A stretch of 39,324 bases of DNA from Thermoplasmatales archaeon (lineage in GTDB: Archaea; Thermoplasmatota; E2; UBA202; JdFR-43), in the NCBI GenBank assembly GCA_014361245.1, contig JACIWB010000010.1:1-39324 (forward strand), in the 5' to 3' direction. Shown piece by piece: positions 14,945 through 39,324 of the stretch. The first letter of the stretch is position 1; each line of letters starts with the position of its first letter. The translations under genes were made by a program, and so were the position numbers. The notes beneath the pieces are model-generated. The model searched no databases. It was not told the origin of the DNA and saw only the letters and a list, made by a program, of their open reading frames with translations.

Positions 14945-14963
14945 CTTAAATTTTTGCCCGCAT

Positions 14964-15298
14964 GTTTCAATCCTTGTTTTTCTGGAAATTTTTGCAACCC
15001 TGAAAAATACAGATGATATTAGATTGTTCGAAGGGAGAGTTTCAATCCTTGTTTTTCTGGAAATTTTTGCAACAGAACATTGGACGGGCAAGTAAGAGCA
15101 TTTTTATCAAGTAGAGTTTCAATCCTTGTTTTTCTGGAAATTTTTGCAACTGTAAAAGCAGACAGGTACATCGAATATTTGCAGGAAAGTTTCAATCCTT
15201 GTTTTTCTGGAAATTTTTGCAACAAATTGAGAACTATTTTGAGAAATTAAAAGATAGAAAGAAGTTTCAATCCTTGTTTTTCTGGAAATTTTTGCAAC
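14964..15298 (-). CRISPR. CRISPR array, 5 repeats and 4 spacers
   Basis: Five identical 35-nt repeats start at 14964, 15039, 15116, 15189 and 15264, separated by spacers of 40, 42, 38 and 40 nt. On the minus strand the repeat begins GTTGCAAAAATTTCC and ends AGGATTGAAAC. ATTGAAAC is the usual 5' handle of type I/III crRNAs in archaea, so transcription is probably from the minus strand. All four spacers begin with T in that orientation, while the outermost repeat is followed by A, so the repeat might be 36 nt. No cas genes lie within the window. Short reading frames in the array are artefacts of the repeats. Confidence 0.97.
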
Positions 15299-24326: not shown

Positions 24327-25031
24327 ATGAATAGATATGAAAAGCAAATTCCGATTTTAGGAAAAGAAGGGCAGGAGAAGCTTAAAGAAGCAAAAATTGC
24401 TGTTGTAGGGGCGGGCGGGCTTGGCTCTGCTGTTTGCTTTTATCTTGCATCTGCTGGGTTTGGGCATATTAAGATAATAGATAGCGATGCTGTTGAGTTG
24501 TCTAATTTGAATAGGCAGATAATTCACTGGGAAGAAGATATTGGAAAGGATAAAGTTTTTTCTGCTGTTGAAAAGTTAAGGAAGTTAAATAGCGAAGTAG
24601 AAATAGTTGGAATTAAAGAGAAAATAAGCAGGCATAATATGGACTTGCTTAAAGATGCGGATGCAATTGTTGATTGCCTTGATAATTTTGAATCAAGATA
24701 TATATTGAATGAAGCATGCCTTGAATATGAAATTCCTCTATTTCACGGAGCATGCAGGGCATTTCAGGGGCAGGCAACAGTTATAATACCATATAAAACT
24801 GCATGCCTAAAATGCATTTTTCCTAAAGTCAGGGATGAAAAAAATTTGCCAATTATTGGAAGTGTTGCTGGAACAATAGCAACGATACAGGCAACTGAAT
24901 TAATAAAATATATAGTTGGAATTAAGCCATCTCTTGAAAATAAACTTCTCATCTATGATGCCCATTTTCTTTCCTACTATCTGGTTGATTTAGAAAAAAA
25001 TAAAAACTGCCCCGCTTGTAGTAAAAGATGA
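24327..25031 (+). CDS. E1-like adenylyltransferase (ThiF/MoeB family)
   Basis: A 234-residue E1-type enzyme. The ATP site has GAGGLG (29-34) and IDSD near 51-54, Arg63 in NRQ, Lys74/76 and Asp119 in VDCLDN. Two Cys pairs (C160/C163 and C228/C231) form the structural zinc site. The segment around 172-185 (KNLPIIGSVAGTIATIQ) has no Cys where thioester-forming homologues often carry one. It adenylates the C-terminal Gly of small beta-grasp proteins. The MoaD/ThiS-like gene overlaps by 4 nt and is the obvious partner. Whether it also activates the Ubl at 38593 is open. It lies 3 nt after tRNA-Val. Confidence 0.88.
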   Translation: MNRYEKQIPILGKEGQEKLKEAKIAVVGAGGLGSAVCFYLASAGFGHIKIIDSDAVELSNLNRQIIHWEEDIGKDKVFSAVEKLRKLNSEVEIVGIKEKISRHNMDLLKDADAIVDCLDNFESRYILNEACLEYEIPLFHGACRAFQGQATVIIPYKTACLKCIFPKVRDEKNLPIIGSVAGTIATIQATELIKYIVGIKPSLENKLLIYDAHFLSYYLVDLEKNKNCPACSKR

Positions 25032-25273
25032 AGGTAAAAGTAAAATTTTATTCACTTCATCGTGAAATAGCAGGTGAAAGCGAAATTTACTTGGAAATAG
25101 AGAAGGGTAAAAAATTGAAAGATGTTTTAAAATTAATTTTTGAAAATTATCAAGAATTGGAAAAGCTTAAAGATTTTACAGTTGCATCACTAAACCATAA
25201 ATATGCTAATGGAGAGGAATATGTAAATGAAGGAGATGAAATTGCAATTTTTCCACCGGTTGGAGGGGGCTAG
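25028..25273 (+). CDS. MoaD/ThiS-like beta-grasp sulfur carrier
   Basis: An 81-residue beta-grasp protein: KVKFYSLHREIAGESEIYLE, then LKDVLKLIFENYQ, NGEEYVNEGDEIAIFPPVGGG. The free C-terminus ends in three glycines, so no proteolytic processing is needed. MoaD carries sulfur for molybdopterin; archaeal SAMP proteins of the same fold also modify proteins. It overlaps the E1-like gene by 4 nt (ATGA) and ends tail to tail with the MetAP gene (4-nt overlap). Other molybdopterin genes are not in view, so either role is possible. Confidence 0.85.
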   Translation: MKVKVKFYSLHREIAGESEIYLEIEKGKKLKDVLKLIFENYQELEKLKDFTVASLNHKYANGEEYVNEGDEIAIFPPVGGG

Positions 25274-33710: not shown

Positions 33711-34224
33711 TCACCTCTTCATTAATTTTATTGCTTCTTCTATTGTATCGAACCTATTATAAGGAATTCCAATCATTGCCTCATCATCCTTTAAGTCAGA
33801 TGCCTCTCTGCATCCATAGCATCCAAAAGAAGCATTTGTTTTTCCATAGAGATATACATATGCTATTACATCAACGCAACATGCCTGAATTACAGAAGTA
33901 GAGAGGCTATTGTGCTCCTCGCGATATATATCTGCAAGCAGGCTCAAAATCTGCTTTTTCCAGAGGCATTGCTAAAACTGCTCTGAATTGCTCTTTTAAT
34001 CTTGGATTTCTTCCATTGTTTTTCTACCCGCTTCTTCACTGAGAAATAAGCCAAGATTGCAGAGCATTTTTCCAGATGAAATTTTCTCTGGTAAGGGAGC
34101 AAAGTTAAAAAAGTGGTATTTCCATGTTTTGCTTCCATAAGCATCTGGCATGCCCTCATTGATTTTTTGCGAATTTTTTGAATTTTATCGCTGTTGGGCT
34201 ATATCTCAAGCCTTCTTTCATCAT
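33711..34224 (-). pseudogene. DUF169-family protein, decayed by several frameshifts
   Basis: Pieces of one DUF169-like protein lie in order but in changing frames: MMKEGLRYSPTAIKF (from 34224, stop at 34156), RACQMLMEAKHGNTTFLT, NFAPLPEKISSGKMLCNLGL, RLKEQFRAVLAMPLEKADF, and finally VIQACCVDVIAYVYLYG with SFGCYGCREA to the end at 33711. At least four frame changes are needed to join them. The intact start (overlapping the thioredoxin-like gene's stop) and the recognisable C-terminal Cys motifs show it was once a normal operon member. It now looks non-functional. Confidence 0.75.
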
Positions 34225-34451
34225 CCTATCATTTCCTTTATTTCCTCCTTACTTGGTATCCTTCCCGCTACCTTTATTTTTCCATCTATTGCAAGTGCAG
34301 GCGTTGCTATTACTCCACGATTTATTATTTCTCCAATATCCTCAATCTTTACAATTTCTATGTCTCTTCCTATTTCTTCAACTGCTTCCCTCACCCTTTT
34401 TTCAAGCGCTTTGCACTTCGCACAACCAGTGCCGAATATCTCAATCTTCAT
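34221..34451 (-). CDS. Mini-thioredoxin/glutaredoxin-like protein
   Basis: A 76-residue thioredoxin-fold protein with active site GTGCAKCKALE (C10-x2-C13) near the N-terminus and the cis-Pro loop GVIATPALAIDG. It matches the small redox-active disulfide proteins often linked to ArsP-type permeases. It probably handles thiol exchange or reduction for metalloid or sulfur chemistry. It overlaps the ArsR gene by 4 nt and is followed by the DUF169 remnant with a 4-nt overlap. Confidence 0.9.
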   Translation of the reverse strand: MKIEIFGTGCAKCKALEKRVREAVEEIGRDIEIVKIEDIGEIINRGVIATPALAIDGKIKVAGRIPSKEEIKEMIG

Positions 34452-34804
34452 TTTATCACCTCCTTAATTTTTTCAATCAATTTAAGCAACTTTTTCCCTT
34501 TTTCTGTCAAGAAATAGACAGTGTAATTTCCGATATTTTTTGATTTAATAATTCCATCTTTTTTCAACCTCGAAATATGATATGAGCATTTTGAATAAGG
34601 GCAATTAATCAGCTGAGCAAGCATGCAAACACACATTCTCTGAATGCCTAAAGCATAAATTATTTTCAGCCTTTTTTCATCAGCTATTGTTTTTATAAAA
34701 TCAGCAAATTCTTTATCAATTTTCCTCTCAACCATCGAAACTATTTTTTCAAATCCGCCCTTTTCAGCAACTTCTTTCCTTATTCCTTCTGGAATTTCAA
34801 TCAA
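34448..34804 (-). CDS. ArsR-family metalloregulator with CVC motif
   Basis: A 118-residue winged-helix repressor. LKIIYALGIQRMCVCMLAQL includes C58 and C60, the ELCVCDL-type metalloid site of ArsR. Other Cys (C68, C73) flank the recognition helix CPYSKCSYHISRLKKDGIIK. The wing is NIGNYTVYFLTEKG. It should sense As(III), Sb(III) or a related thiophilic metal and control the operon. It overlaps the permease by 4 nt and the thioredoxin-like gene by 4 nt. Confidence 0.9.
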   Translation of the reverse strand: MIEIPEGIRKEVAEKGGFEKIVSMVERKIDKEFADFIKTIADEKRLKIIYALGIQRMCVCMLAQLINCPYSKCSYHISRLKKDGIIKSKNIGNYTVYFLTEKGKKLLKLIEKIKEVIK

Positions 34805-35877
34805 GCAATCACCCCGAAAAGATATCCTATTAAAGTAGAAAAAACCACAACAAGAGAAATATAAACAGCGGTCTTTTTTACCCCCATAATGCGAGAAAGC
34901 ACAACCATATTCGGCAGGCTTACAGAGGGGCCAGCAAGCAGCAGAGCCAGAGCAGGCCCGCCGCCCATGATTCCAGCATGATAGCCAAATAAATCATTCA
35001 CAATTGGAACTTCAAGAAGTGTTGGCATATAAAGTAAAGCTCCTATTATTGAGGCGATAAAGCAACTTGATAGGCTATTCCCTCCTATATAATTTTTTGC
35101 AAGAACACCAACCGCTCTATCTGGTTCCTCTCCAGTATACTGGGAAGCAATTCCCCCTATTACCCCAACTAAGAATACACCAGCAATTAAAACAGGAAAA
35201 ATTTTTTTGGCAAGCCACCATGTTTCATGTCCCCAATTTTTAACCTCTTCTCTTTCATAGTAAAAAATAAGGGCATAGGAAATTAAAATTGTAAGCAGGT
35301 ATATTACGGGGAATTTTATATTCCAGCTAATTGGAGATGTTGCTACAATCAAAATTAGAATAAGGGAAACAAAAACAAAGATTTTGTCCCACCTTTTCTT
35401 TTCTTTCTTCTTATATTCAAATTGATTATTCAAATTTTCTTCGTCATGCTTTCTGAAAATCAGCGCCATAACAAGCCCGATTAATATTGCCATTAAAACC
35501 GCAAATACAGCTCTGGCAATACCTATCTTAAATCCGAGAACACGGGCAGTCAAAACTATTGCAAGCACATTTATGGCTGGGCCGGAGTAAAGAAAAGCGG
35601 TTGCTGGGCCTATCCCGCCGCCCCGCTTGTATATTCCTGAAAAAATTGGCAGGATTGTACAGCTGCAAACAGCGAGTATTGCTCCAGAGACGGAAGCGAT
35701 GGAATATGATATATACTTTTTTGTTTTAACGCCAAAATATCTTAAAATGCTTTCTTTTGATATAAAGGCAGAAATTGCTCCAGCAATGAAAAAAGCGGGA
35801 ATAAGGCAGGTTAATACATGCTCTGAAAGATAGCTTGCAACTGCATTTATCCCAGCTTTCAATATTTCATATATCAT
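34801..35877 (-). CDS. ArsP-type permease (PF03773-like)
   Basis: A 358-residue permease with about ten helices in two halves. The diagnostic stretch is AVCSCTILPIFSGIYKRGGG followed by GPATAFLYSGPAIN; the second half has LLYMPTLLEVPIVNDLF and GGGPALALLLAGPSVSLPN. The family includes organoarsenical/metalloid efflux permeases. It is the first gene in the minus-strand block, and the CVC-type ArsR next door supports metalloid efflux. The 100-nt gap upstream is shared with lysS. Confidence 0.9.
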   Translation of the reverse strand: MIYEILKAGINAVASYLSEHVLTCLIPAFFIAGAISAFISKESILRYFGVKTKKYISYSIASVSGAILAVCSCTILPIFSGIYKRGGGIGPATAFLYSGPAINVLAIVLTARVLGFKIGIARAVFAVLMAILIGLVMALIFRKHDEENLNNQFEYKKKEKKRWDKIFVFVSLILILIVATSPISWNIKFPVIYLLTILISYALIFYYEREEVKNWGHETWWLAKKIFPVLIAGVFLVGVIGGIASQYTGEEPDRAVGVLAKNYIGGNSLSSCFIASIIGALLYMPTLLEVPIVNDLFGYHAGIMGGGPALALLLAGPSVSLPNMVVLSRIMGVKKTAVYISLVVVFSTLIGYLFGVIA

Positions 35878-35977: not shown

Positions 35978-37513
35978 GTGCACTGGGCGGATGTGATTGC
36001 TGAAAAACTTTATGAGCAAAAAAGAAAGCATATTTTAGCTACTGCTATAACTCCTTCTGGCCCAATTCATGTTGGAAATTTAAGAGAAGTGATGACTACT
36101 GAAGCAGTTTATAGGGCATTGAAGGAAAAGGGGGGAGATGGAGAGCTTATATATATAGGAGATACATTTGACCCTTTAAGAAAGGTTTATCCTTTTTTGC
36201 CATCAAGTTATGAGAAATATGTAGGGATGCCAGTAGCAGATATACCATGCCCTTGCAATGAACATGAAAGCTATGCACATCATTTTCTTGAACCATTTCT
36301 TGAAAGCATAGAAAAGTTGGGTATAAAGCCAAAAATATACTATGCACATGAGCTTTACAAAAAAGGAGTTTATAATGATGCAATAAAAACATCTCTGGAA
36401 AATGCGGAAAGAATAAGAGGTATTTTATCAAGCGTTTCTGGAAGAGATCTGCCAACATCTTGGGCACCCATAAATATAAAATGCGAAAAATGTGGAAAAT
36501 TAATGGGGGAGATGGAGTCGTATGATTACCCTATCGTAAGTTATAAATGCAAATATTGTGGGAATGTAGGAGATTTAGATATAAGAGAGGGTGGAACTGC
36601 AAAACTTCCATGGAGAATTGATTGGCCAGCAAGATGGAAAATTTTCGGTGTAACCTTCGAGGCATTTGGAAAAGACCATGCCGCAGCTGGAAGCTCATGG
36701 GATACTGGAAAGTTAATCTCGAAGGAAATTTTTGGTTATGAGCCGCCGATGCCACTGGTATATGAATTCATAAATTTAAAAGGTAGGGGGGCGATGCACG
36801 GCTCCACTGGCGTTGCTATATCTGCCGAAGAGGTTTTGAGAATTATGCCTCCAGAAGCTATTCGTTTCCTCTTTATGAAATATGAGCCATCCCGCCATAT
36901 AGATTTTGATGCAACATATGGAATAATAAATCTTATGGATGAATATGATAAATATGAGAAAGCATATTTTGAAGGAGAGGGTGAACTTAAAGAATTTAAG
37001 AGAGTATATGAGCTATCTCAGCCTTTTGAAGTTGCAAAAAGGAGGCCAATTTCAATACCGTATCTACATCTCGCAATTGTTGCACAGATAGGAAAAAATT
37101 TTGATGAAGTTGTTGAAATTCTTAAAAGGAAGAATGATTTGCAGGAATTTGATTTAGAAAGATTGAAAGAAAGATATGAAAAAATAAAATACTGGCTCGG
37201 CAGATATGCTCCAGAGGAGATAAAATTTGAATTGAGAAGGGATTTCCCGGATTTGGATCTAGGCAATGAGGACAAAAAATTTTTGGAAATTTTGATGAAA
37301 AATTTTGAAGCAATAGAATGGGATGCTGAAAAAATACATTCAACAATTCATGAAACAGCAAAAAATAATAATTTCCCTGCAAAAAGAGCATTCGAACTAA
37401 TATATTTAATAAGTCTTGCAAAAACAAAGGGACCAAGGGCAGGCTATTTTCTTCAATCTCTTGGAAAGGATTTCATAGTTAAAAGGATAAAAAATTACTT
37501 AAATAGGGCATAG
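35978..37513 (+). CDS. lysS: Class I lysyl-tRNA synthetase
   Basis: A 511-residue class I LysRS. The HIGH-type motif is PSGPIHVGN, and the Cys pairs CEKCGK and CKYCGN form a zinc site. WDTGKLISKEIFGYEPP and FEAFGKDHAAAGSSWD are family motifs. The KMSKS-equivalent is GRGAMHGSTG, where the leading Lys is Ala. The start at GTG 35978 ((M)HWADVIAEKL) is preferred over ATG 35936 because homologues begin HWAD and the TATA box lies 26 nt upstream. It replaces the class II enzyme in many archaea. Its 3' end overlaps the convergent JAMM gene by 19 nt. Confidence 0.93.
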   Translation: MHWADVIAEKLYEQKRKHILATAITPSGPIHVGNLREVMTTEAVYRALKEKGGDGELIYIGDTFDPLRKVYPFLPSSYEKYVGMPVADIPCPCNEHESYAHHFLEPFLESIEKLGIKPKIYYAHELYKKGVYNDAIKTSLENAERIRGILSSVSGRDLPTSWAPINIKCEKCGKLMGEMESYDYPIVSYKCKYCGNVGDLDIREGGTAKLPWRIDWPARWKIFGVTFEAFGKDHAAAGSSWDTGKLISKEIFGYEPPMPLVYEFINLKGRGAMHGSTGVAISAEEVLRIMPPEAIRFLFMKYEPSRHIDFDATYGIINLMDEYDKYEKAYFEGEGELKEFKRVYELSQPFEVAKRRPISIPYLHLAIVAQIGKNFDEVVEILKRKNDLQEFDLERLKERYEKIKYWLGRYAPEEIKFELRRDFPDLDLGNEDKKFLEILMKNFEAIEWDAEKIHSTIHETAKNNNFPAKRAFELIYLISLAKTKGPRAGYFLQSLGKDFIVKRIKNYLNRA

Positions 37514-38124
37514 GGTATCTCAAAACATTCTCCATTTATTAAGCGAAACACTCTTGCTTCCTTGTTTAATGGATCAATAACCAGCGAGACATGAAATTTT
37601 TTGTTAAAATAATTTTTTTGTGTTTCCAAATCAACGCCTGACATAAAGGATGAATAACCTGGATGGGAATGATACCATCCAACTATTATATAATCATACT
37701 CTATCTCATCAAGTTTATCAAAAATTTTTTCAAATGCATTTCTTTTGAATTTTACATGAAATGAAGAAGAGTCAAGTTCTGCTGTTATTATGTTAAATGC
37801 AATAGTATATTCCTTTTCCCAGTAAAAAACATCTCCTATTATGAATCCCATTGCTTCTTTTCCTTCTTCAGCCATTTCATATGAATGCAAAATCATTTTT
37901 TCAAATGCATCCTTTTTTATGTAAAAATTTAGCCCATCCATGAATGGATAGTCAGCAAATCTTTCAAAATTACCAGTTTTCATTTCCTTCAAATTTTTTT
38001 CTTTATATACCTCCTCAATTAATTTCCTTATATCATCTTTTGGATAATAAAATATTATTTGCTCGGGCGGCGGCACAAGCCTTCTTTCCTTTTTTTCCTC
38101 TCTTTCTATCTTAACCATCTTCAT
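37495..38124 (-). CDS. JAMM/MPN+ metalloprotease (deubiquitinase-like)
   Basis: A 209-residue JAMM protease. The zinc site is complete: E90 (in GKEAMGFIIGD), H152-x-H154 and D165 in HSHPGYSSFMSGVD, with S162 of the motif. An extra N-terminal region of about 60 residues (PPPEQIIFYYPKDDIRKLIE) may bind partners. JAMM enzymes in Ubl operons trim the Ubl precursor and remove it from targets. It is third in the Ubl-E2-JAMM operon and overlaps the E2 gene by 14 nt. The GG-containing Ubl encoded first is the likely substrate. Confidence 0.93.
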   Translation of the reverse strand: MKMVKIEREEKKERRLVPPPEQIIFYYPKDDIRKLIEEVYKEKNLKEMKTGNFERFADYPFMDGLNFYIKKDAFEKMILHSYEMAEEGKEAMGFIIGDVFYWEKEYTIAFNIITAELDSSSFHVKFKRNAFEKIFDKLDEIEYDYIIVGWYHSHPGYSSFMSGVDLETQKNYFNKKFHVSLVIDPLNKEARVFRLINGECFEIPYALFK

Positions 38125-38617
38125 CTATTATTTTTGGCCTGCTTCTCATCTGCTGTGGAACAAATGGATTTTTATTGAAATATTCAGCAGCCCTTGTACA
38201 AGTATCGCTCTCAAAAGGATTTTTGGGATTTGGGTAAGAAAGCAATGTTTCAATTCCTTTTATAAAGGCAAGAAGATTTGATTTTACGGACCAGTTATCA
38301 AGCAATTTTGTGCATAAATATCCTCCTTCCTCTGGAGGCATTATATTTGGATGGAATATCTCACTTTTCCATCTCACTATCGGTGTTTGATAAGGATAGT
38401 CAGAGGTTATTATTATTTTTAATTTATGAGTATATTTTGTTAAAACCTTTCCATCGCTGAAAACTGGGCCAGGTGTATTTACAAGAGTGATATTTATTTC
38501 TATAGGAATTTTATTTAAATTTTCATCGCTTGCAATAAAATGATGCGCTGTTTTTTTTCTGCATTCACTGAGTTCATTTTTTATTCTTTTTATCAATATT
38601 TCTTTTGGGAGAGGCAT
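38111..38617 (-). CDS. E2-like ubiquitin-conjugating enzyme (UBC fold)
   Basis: A 168-residue UBC-fold protein. An N-terminal helix (EILIKRIKNELSECRKK) and strands are followed by DYPYQTPIVRWKSEIFHPNI with HPN at 89-91, the active-site Cys102 in GGYLCTKLLDNWS, and the C-terminal part LSYPNPKNPFESDTCTRAAE. Cys, HPN and the LDNWS turn match active eukaryotic and Caldiarchaeum-type E2 enzymes, so Ubl conjugation is expected. A GGGGG ribosome binding site sits a few bases before its ATG, inside the Ubl gene. It overlaps Ubl by 25 nt and JAMM by 14 nt. Confidence 0.92.
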   Translation of the reverse strand: MPLPKEILIKRIKNELSECRKKTAHHFIASDENLNKIPIEINITLVNTPGPVFSDGKVLTKYTHKLKIIITSDYPYQTPIVRWKSEIFHPNIMPPEEGGYLCTKLLDNWSVKSNLLAFIKGIETLLSYPNPKNPFESDTCTRAAEYFNKNPFVPQQMRSRPKIIDEDG

Positions 38618-38850
38618 TTTCCCCCAACTGGATCAGGTATAAGCTCAATTACATCTTCTTCCTGCAAAAGTGCTTCTTCAACAGTAAGCTCCGCTTGCAG
38701 TATTTTTTTACCTATTCTTAAAACATATGCTCCAGGATTTTTCTTCCAGTAGTTTGCGGCTTCCTCAATAATTTCTTCTATTGTATTTTCTTTATTTACA
38801 TCCATTTTTAGCTTATTTCCTGTTTCAACATCCTTAACAACTATTTTCAT
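38593..38850 (-). CDS. Ubiquitin-like beta-grasp protein with GG and 8-residue tail
   Basis: An 85-residue beta-grasp protein: MKIVVKDVETGNKLKMDVN hairpin, helix TIEEIIEEAANYWKKN, VLRIGKKILQ, the turn VEEALLQEEDVIELIPD, and Gly76-Gly77 followed by KCLSQKKY. As in ubiquitin precursors, a protease must remove the tail to expose Gly-Gly; the JAMM enzyme in the operon is suited to this. The fold is close to MoaD/ThiS in size, but context says protein modifier. It is first in the operon, with GGGGAG just before the ATG and a TTTATAAATTT box about 25-35 nt upstream. Confidence 0.88.
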   Translation of the reverse strand: MKIVVKDVETGNKLKMDVNKENTIEEIIEEAANYWKKNPGAYVLRIGKKILQAELTVEEALLQEEDVIELIPDPVGGKCLSQKKY

Positions 38851-39324
38851 TCTCCCCAGAATTAATTTTTTAAAAATTTATAAATTTTTTGCCCTTCTTG
38901 GGGTCCGTAGAACAAAAGAAAAGGAAAATGGAATTAAATAGAAAAATAGTATCTTTGCCATAACTGAGAAAATGCAAAGTTATCTCTCTTAGTATTTAAC
39001 AAAGAATATTTTTTAAAGATTAAAAAATATATTTGAAAACCATAAAGAGCAATTATTCCTATGAAGATGACTAATTTATACAAAGTAATTTAAAACAACT
39101 TCAGGAATTGGACAAAATGATTAAAGGTAAAATAGTAGAATTATTTTTATTTATTTTACAGTTCCAAAATTGATGCTGTTAACTTAACCAAAATTTTCAG
39201 TAAAAATATGCATCCCATAGAATGCATTTGGTGATAAATGCAAAGGGATGCAATTATTGAAAGAAAAATGTATCGTTATGAGAGATAAAACCAGTGGAAT
39301 TCATATATTCGTAAGGAGAAGCAG
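38851..39324. other. Gene-poor AT-rich end region
   Basis: No gene was identified over 474 nt on either strand. The first 40 nt hold the promoter of the Ubl operon (TTTATAAATTT box on the minus strand near 38874-38885). The remainder is A/T-rich with no rRNA, tRNA or CRISPR sequence that I can see, apart from a nested hairpin near 39209-39252. Confidence 0.5.
39209..39252. repeat. Nested inverted-repeat hairpin
   Basis: The outer arms TGCATCCC (39209-39216) and GGGATGCA (39245-39252) are perfectly complementary, 8 bp. Inside, TGCATTT (39223-39229) and AAATGCA (39236-39242) form a second 7-bp stem around the loop GGTGAT, with an internal loop of 6 and 2 nt. Candidates are a structured RNA, a transposon end or a transcription-factor site; nothing else in the sequence decides between them. 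Confidence 0.6.

Follow-up and report, generated by a model that had tools for sequence, protein, structure and literature searches.

The window analysed here, a stretch of 39,324 nucleotides from a Thermoplasmatales archaeon, encodes a ubiquitin-like modifier (Ubl), an E2 conjugating enzyme, and a JAMM protease that very probably belong to a eukaryote-like ubiquitin cascade, with the E1 supplied in trans by a gene elsewhere in the genome, on contig C38. The three-gene form seen in the window is a derived state, namely a four-gene operon from which the E1 gene has been relocated.

The operon and its genes

All three genes lie on the minus strand and overlap, by 25 and 14 bp in our ORF analysis. 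They encode the Ubl of 85 aa (38593-38850), recognised by its ORF, ubiquitin fold, conserved Gly-Gly motif (GG), and dN/dS; the E2 of 168 aa (38111-38617); and the Rpn11-like JAMM protease of 209 aa (37495-38124), the latter two recognised by Pfam family (UQ_con and JAB, respectively), PDB match, and conservation. An earlier note on this DNA had read three overlapping ORFs at 37495-38850 as a ubiquitin-like conjugation operon in a Thermoplasmatota-like background; the positions proved exact, and the reading as such an operon in a Thermoplasmatota archaeon is borne out. Its remark that no E1 or RING gene is adjacent is also literally correct for the window, among whose ORFs we found no RING gene in the operon and no E1 gene next to Ubl, E2, and JAMM.

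Compared with G032, a genome of the same genus, synonymous sites are strongly diverged (pS 0.54-0.62) alongside proteins that are 76-92% identical, and the three ORFs are therefore real genes under purifying selection rather than products of chance. Their dN/dS values are 0.04 (Ubl), 0.05 (E2), and 0.11 (JAMM), and the range of 0.04-0.11 covers all four genes including the E1. The motif TTTATAAA at 38877-38884 (minus strand), which precedes the Ubl start codon by 27-34 bp, may be an archaeal TATA box, for which it constitutes weak evidence: the match is palindromic, and the window contains 11 copies against 5.7 expected. Elsewhere, the window holds a short CRISPR-like array (14963-15298) with five copies of GTTTCAATCCTTGTTTTTCTGGAAATTTTTGCAAC spaced by 73-77 bp and, on the minus strand at 34221-35877, one apparent operon of a permease, an ArsR-like regulator, and a small thioredoxin-like protein, as judged by eye from the translations.

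Modifier, conjugating enzyme, and protease

The Ubl carries Gly76-Gly77 followed by an eight-residue tail, KCLSQKKY. As a single sequence it matches the Pfam ubiquitin family below the cut-off (E = 0.0017) and ThiS weakly (E = 0.12), and we therefore predicted its fold with AlphaFold2 from 21 homologues. The earlier note had called for such a prediction and had described an 85-residue beta-grasp protein with an internal Gly-Gly, which agrees with what we obtained: a model with a pLDDT of 82.5 and the ubiquitin topology b-b-a-b-b-b. In a Foldseek search against the PDB, its top matches were ubiquitin and other ubiquitin-type modifiers, with ubiquitin at a TM of about 0.78-0.81 and about 1.1-1.2 A over 72 residues at about 25% identity. 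A profile of the same 21 sequences matched single-domain ubiquitin at E values of about 0.001-0.01 (the lower values for polyubiquitin chains reflect summed repeats) and aligned Lys49 of the Ubl, rather than its Lys48, with the Lys48 position of ubiquitin. GG 76-77 is present in 77 of 77 distinct homologues within an invariant terminus PDP-x-GG, generally PDPE before GG, with PDPV as the form of the window's genus. GG is the very C-terminus in 38 of the 77, whereas the remainder carry a further 1-15 residues; the start codons used for homologues were picked automatically. In three loci (L023, L097, and L113), the Ubl is fused C-terminally to a longer N-terminal part, which in L023 has zinc-ribbon-like motifs, and the JAMM of these loci likewise lies within longer ORFs.

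The E2 scores above the Pfam cut-off for UQ_con (E = 5e-16, 59 bits versus 27) and finds UBE2A as its best PDB match (1.5e-11). The HPN motif (residues 89-91) and active-site Cys102 that the earlier note had pointed out are both invariant in 86 of 86 distinct homologues, and a second cysteine, Cys140, is also invariant in all 86. At the position equivalent to the proline of the RING-contacting SPA loop, 80 of the 86 homologues have phenylalanine and the window's E2 has valine, a substitution that argues against a standard RING contact.

The JAMM protein has the full set of E-HxH-S-D ligands noticed earlier (E90, H152-x-H154, S162, and D165), each conserved at 98.5% or more in 83 homologues, and matches Pfam JAB at E about 1.2e-15 (57.8 bits versus a cut-off of 22.5). 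Its best PDB match is Rpn11 (1.8e-12), with the Caldiarchaeum Rpn11-like protein at 1.4e-11. Since the Ubl is tail-less in 38 of 77 homologues and the JAMM active site has been kept, maturation cannot be the sole job of this protease. It probably deconjugates, and removal of the tag from targets would be the simplest conserved role suggested by these sequences; Caldiarchaeum Rpn11 performs both maturation and deconjugation in vitro (PMC5654768, PMC6043591). The earlier note had staked its interpretation on the three folds and on conservation of Cys102 and Gly-Gly, and in each respect it holds: the ubiquitin fold is predicted, E2 and JAMM lie above the Pfam cut-offs, and Cys102 and GG are invariant.

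A likely cognate E1 on another contig

When the genome containing the window was searched for ThiF, two matches were returned, one in the window (24327-25031) and one on contig C38 (8614-9393). The latter, a protein of 260 aa with a catalytic-type Cys187, is the likely cognate E1, based on this search and on orthology. Among 17 searched genomes of the family, an orthologue (57-88% identical) occurs in 12 of the 13 that are E2-positive and is absent from the 4 that are E2-negative. The relocation of the E1 gene is read from two same-family genomes (G048, locus L042; G014, locus L043) in which the orthologue immediately precedes the Ubl gene; the E1 has the same position in relatives across the order, class, and phylum. 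In the window's genus, it adjoins an orc1/cdc6-like gene instead. Contamination of the genome bin as the source of the contig C38 E1 was rejected in view of the 88% identical orthologue in G032.

A single ThiF domain spans the whole protein, and we found no separate Cys domain or UFD in its 260 aa. Its profile is closest to ubiquitin-type E1s among solved proteins (Uba1 137.8 bits, UBA3/SAE2 about 125-127, MoeB 103.7, ThiF 94, and UBA5 82), and its structure model resembles UBA5, MoeB, ThiF, and UBA3. It has the glycine-rich loop and invariant R15, D60, N68, R71, K84, and D127, together with invariant C168, C171, C252, and H255 that probably form a metal site. Cys187 is invariant as well and falls within a low-confidence loop of the model, which is presumably flexible.

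Distribution in Thermoplasmatota

The earlier note had proposed looking for the same gene order in related genomes, and we did so for 80 named-genome loci fetched with an E2 alignment. E1-Ubl-E2-JAMM, in that order and on one strand, was present in 50 of these; 17 showed Ubl-E2-JAMM without an E1 in the fetched stretch. An alternative operon order with the E1 after JAMM was seen in L097 and L113, and distant genomes of the phylum (L003-L008 and L010) have clearly different sets of E2, E1, and JAMM, with longer E1s or another order, that lie outside this family. Across 390 genomes of the phylum, the E1 was found in 66, all of which (66/66) have the E2; a further 16 possess an E2 but not this E1, several of them with visibly different E2 systems, and 308 have neither. 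With the E1 absent from all 308 E2-negative genomes, this co-occurrence has a Fisher p of about 1e-59, with genomes counted as independent despite their shared ancestry. Most relatives are metagenome-assembled genomes, and absence from incomplete ones is weak evidence. The operon is widespread in Thermoplasmatota and extends to the methanogenic Methanomassiliicoccales, an order with cultured members. E2 identity drops with taxonomic distance, and most family members have an aminoacyl-tRNA synthetase-like gene as neighbour.

In archaea, cascades that include a true E2 are known chiefly from Aigarchaeota and the Asgard group (PMC5654768, PMC6043591), and Grau-Bove et al. reported partial toolkits in Crenarchaeota and one euryarchaeal genome (PMC4327156). 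Hennell James et al. scanned the archaeal genomes of February 2017 and mention a "Cluster III" (PMC5654768), and Fuchs et al. had already described operons in which Ub, E1, and E2 accompany a prokaryotic JAMM close to Rpn11 (PMC6043591); loci of the operon studied here may be among those of either work. In the open-access literature, we found neither a paper describing this operon in Thermoplasmatota nor biochemistry on its family.

Comparison with known systems and alternative explanations

The operon of Candidatus Caldiarchaeum subterraneum and Asgard archaea comprises Ub, E1, E2, the srfp RING protein, and an adjacent Rpn11 (PMC5654768, PMC6043591). Our system shares with it the operon organisation, a Ubl of ubiquitin fold in which a tail follows GG, the E2 with catalytic Cys (here with HPN), a ubiquitin-class E1, and an Rpn11-like JAMM with its ligands. 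We classify it as a variant of this type rather than a member because its E1 is not multidomain and its operon lacks a RING gene. The Caldiarchaeum E1 is reported to contain a Cys domain of some 60 aa (PMC11354881), whereas the 260-aa E1 has neither this nor a UFD; srfp is absent from the operon, and RING fingers are encoded elsewhere in the genome. Further differences from Caldiarchaeum are the relocation of the E1 in the window's lineage, a JAMM gene that is co-directional with and overlaps the E2 gene, and a Ubl with the terminus PDP-x-GG, to which half of the homologues add no tail. The JAMM-3 group of prokaryotic JAMMs, as drawn in Fig. 1 of PMC6043591, similarly combines operons of Ub, E1, and E2 with a JAMM near Rpn11 and has no E3; it probably overlaps with our operon set. 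UBA5-UFC1-UFM1 likewise has a minimal E1 without a Cys half-domain, with UBA5 among the best matches of our E1 model, and an 85-aa Ubl; the system described here differs in an E1 sequence nearer to Uba1/UBA3, an E2 with HPN, a Ubl ending in GG, and a JAMM protease.

The earlier note had envisaged a compact and perhaps undescribed variant with no E1 adjacent. An E1-less system, or one with a promiscuous E1 in which the Ubl would be charged by the window's MoeB-like enzyme (24327-25031) shared with the MoaD pathway, appears highly improbable to us. This 234-aa enzyme is indeed present in the window and in the same-genus genome, and Haloferax has an E1 shared by SAMPs and sulfur carriers (PMC6043591). 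However, its gene, 13.5 kb from the operon on the plus strand, directly precedes and overlaps one for a MoaD/SAMP-like protein with a terminal GGG (together 24327-25273), the enzyme is only 35% identical to the E1 on contig C38, and it is the latter that is orthologous (57-88% identical in the family) to the operon-linked E1. We consequently reject the window's MoeB as the cognate E1, given this low identity and its own MoaD partner, and the E1-less variant, given the dedicated E1 in the same genome that is operon-linked in relatives. The MoeB/MoaD pair, also present in the same-genus genome (other family members have longer MoeB-like proteins), looks like a separate cofactor or SAMP-type system; its MoaD-like gene (25028-25273) is the only above-cut-off ThiS-family match of the genome. 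SAMP/UbaA/desampylase systems themselves share an archaeal Ubl, an E1, and a JAMM with ours but have a ThiS/MoaD-family Ubl and no E2, neither of which applies to the operon.

That the Ubl is mainly a sulfur donor of MoaD/ThiS type and the E2 vestigial is, in our view, even less probable. The weak ThiS match of the Ubl would fit this idea, as would the fact that E1s of this minimal size serve sulfur carriers, but the E2 keeps Cys102 and HPN in all 86 homologues at a dN/dS of 0.05, the E1 profile is closer to Uba1 than to MoeB or ThiF, the fold search with the Ubl is led by ubiquitin-type modifiers, and the genome has its separate MoaD/MoeB pair. Least probable of all is an antiphage system of Bil type that attaches the Ubl to viral proteins. 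BilABCD likewise encodes Ubl, E2, JAMM, and E1 together (PMC11354881), but its Ubl consists of two fused domains instead of a single one of 85 aa, its E2 has a CEHH arrangement instead of HPN, and its multidomain E1 has inactive and active adenylation domains plus a Cys domain instead of one adenylation domain (PMC11354881). PADLOC models match weakly (E2 0.007-0.015, BilD 6e-8), and an E2 identity that tracks taxonomy, together with an aminoacyl-tRNA synthetase-like neighbour in most family members, is unlike a mobile defence island. With the tested Bil features absent, we reject this possibility and favour the ubiquitin-like cascade with its E1 in trans.

Proposed course of the cascade

Folds and families, conservation of catalytic residues, purifying selection, operon structure, and identity and co-occurrence of the E1 were computed, and the chemical steps are those that the protein families would imply. 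JAMM would trim the eight-residue tail of the Ubl to expose PDPVGG, a step that many relatives would not need. The minimal E1 would then adenylate the Ubl C-terminus and hold the Ubl as a thioester on Cys187 before handing it to Cys102 of the E2, which would transfer it to lysines of target proteins, possibly aided by a RING protein encoded elsewhere; JAMM would take the Ubl off its targets again. Degradation of tagged proteins is possible, since the genome has 20S proteasome genes. The Caldiarchaeum cascade offers a biochemical precedent (PMC5654768, PMC6043591). Speaking against this course is that the E1 has neither the separate Cys domain nor the UFD through which ubiquitin E1s of other kinds pass the modifier to E2, that the SPA-loop proline of the E2 is replaced by Phe or Val, and that G143, a genome 86% complete, yielded the E2 but no E1.

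RING proteins as E3 candidates

A search of the family with PF13639 gave weak RING matches. In the window's genome, two RING fingers lie at the C-terminal end of PKD and CARDB proteins, past the one transmembrane segment predicted in each; one protein is of 775 aa and also matches a cohesin model (L141; contig C9, 692-3016), and the gene of the other is cut by the contig end (L142; contig C73, 1240-2148). The finger follows the pattern C-x2-C-x(11-14)-C-x-C-G-x3-H-x2-C-x6-C-x2-C with nine positions invariant in 22 sequences, and the top PDB matches of its profile are RING domains of E3s (RNF4, Arkadia, RNF165, and AMFR). It is linked to the operon in five genomes: at the end of ORFs of 3,155 and 3,198 residues between E1 and Ubl (G005 and G017), on ORFs of at least 1,888 and at least 2,780 residues, cut by contig ends, directly before E2 (G041 and G035), and on a protein that has a transmembrane segment and is encoded immediately ahead of E1 (G022).

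Across the phylum, 68 of 82 E2-positive and 23 of 308 E2-negative genomes have the finger (p about 1e-41, inflated by shared ancestry). The window's own family has it in 8 of 13 E2-positive genomes and in all 4 E2-negative ones (66-87% complete); there it does not follow the E2, so that we do not accept it as an obligatory E3 in the window's lineage. This conserved RING family is the best lead for an E3. Rather doubtful, and put forward only tentatively, is the idea that the E3s of Thermoplasmatota belong to this RING family, carried on the cytoplasmic tails of single-pass surface proteins with PKD/CARDB ectodomains, on small zinc-ribbon proteins of methanogens, or on operon proteins of about 3,000 residues.

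Biological implications

Tracing E1-Ubl-E2-JAMM through a large part of Thermoplasmatota bears on the timing of the origin of such cascades in archaea, and the minimal E1, partnered by a canonical E2, is a candidate for a stage between MoeB-type enzymes and multidomain ubiquitin E1s. That Ubls lacking a tail occur next to an intact JAMM suggests that the use conserved here is reversible tagging, and the carriers among Methanomassiliicoccales make native targets accessible to proteomics in culture. If the reading of the RING proteins as E3s is true, it would couple ubiquitin-like tagging to the cell surface in a prokaryote.
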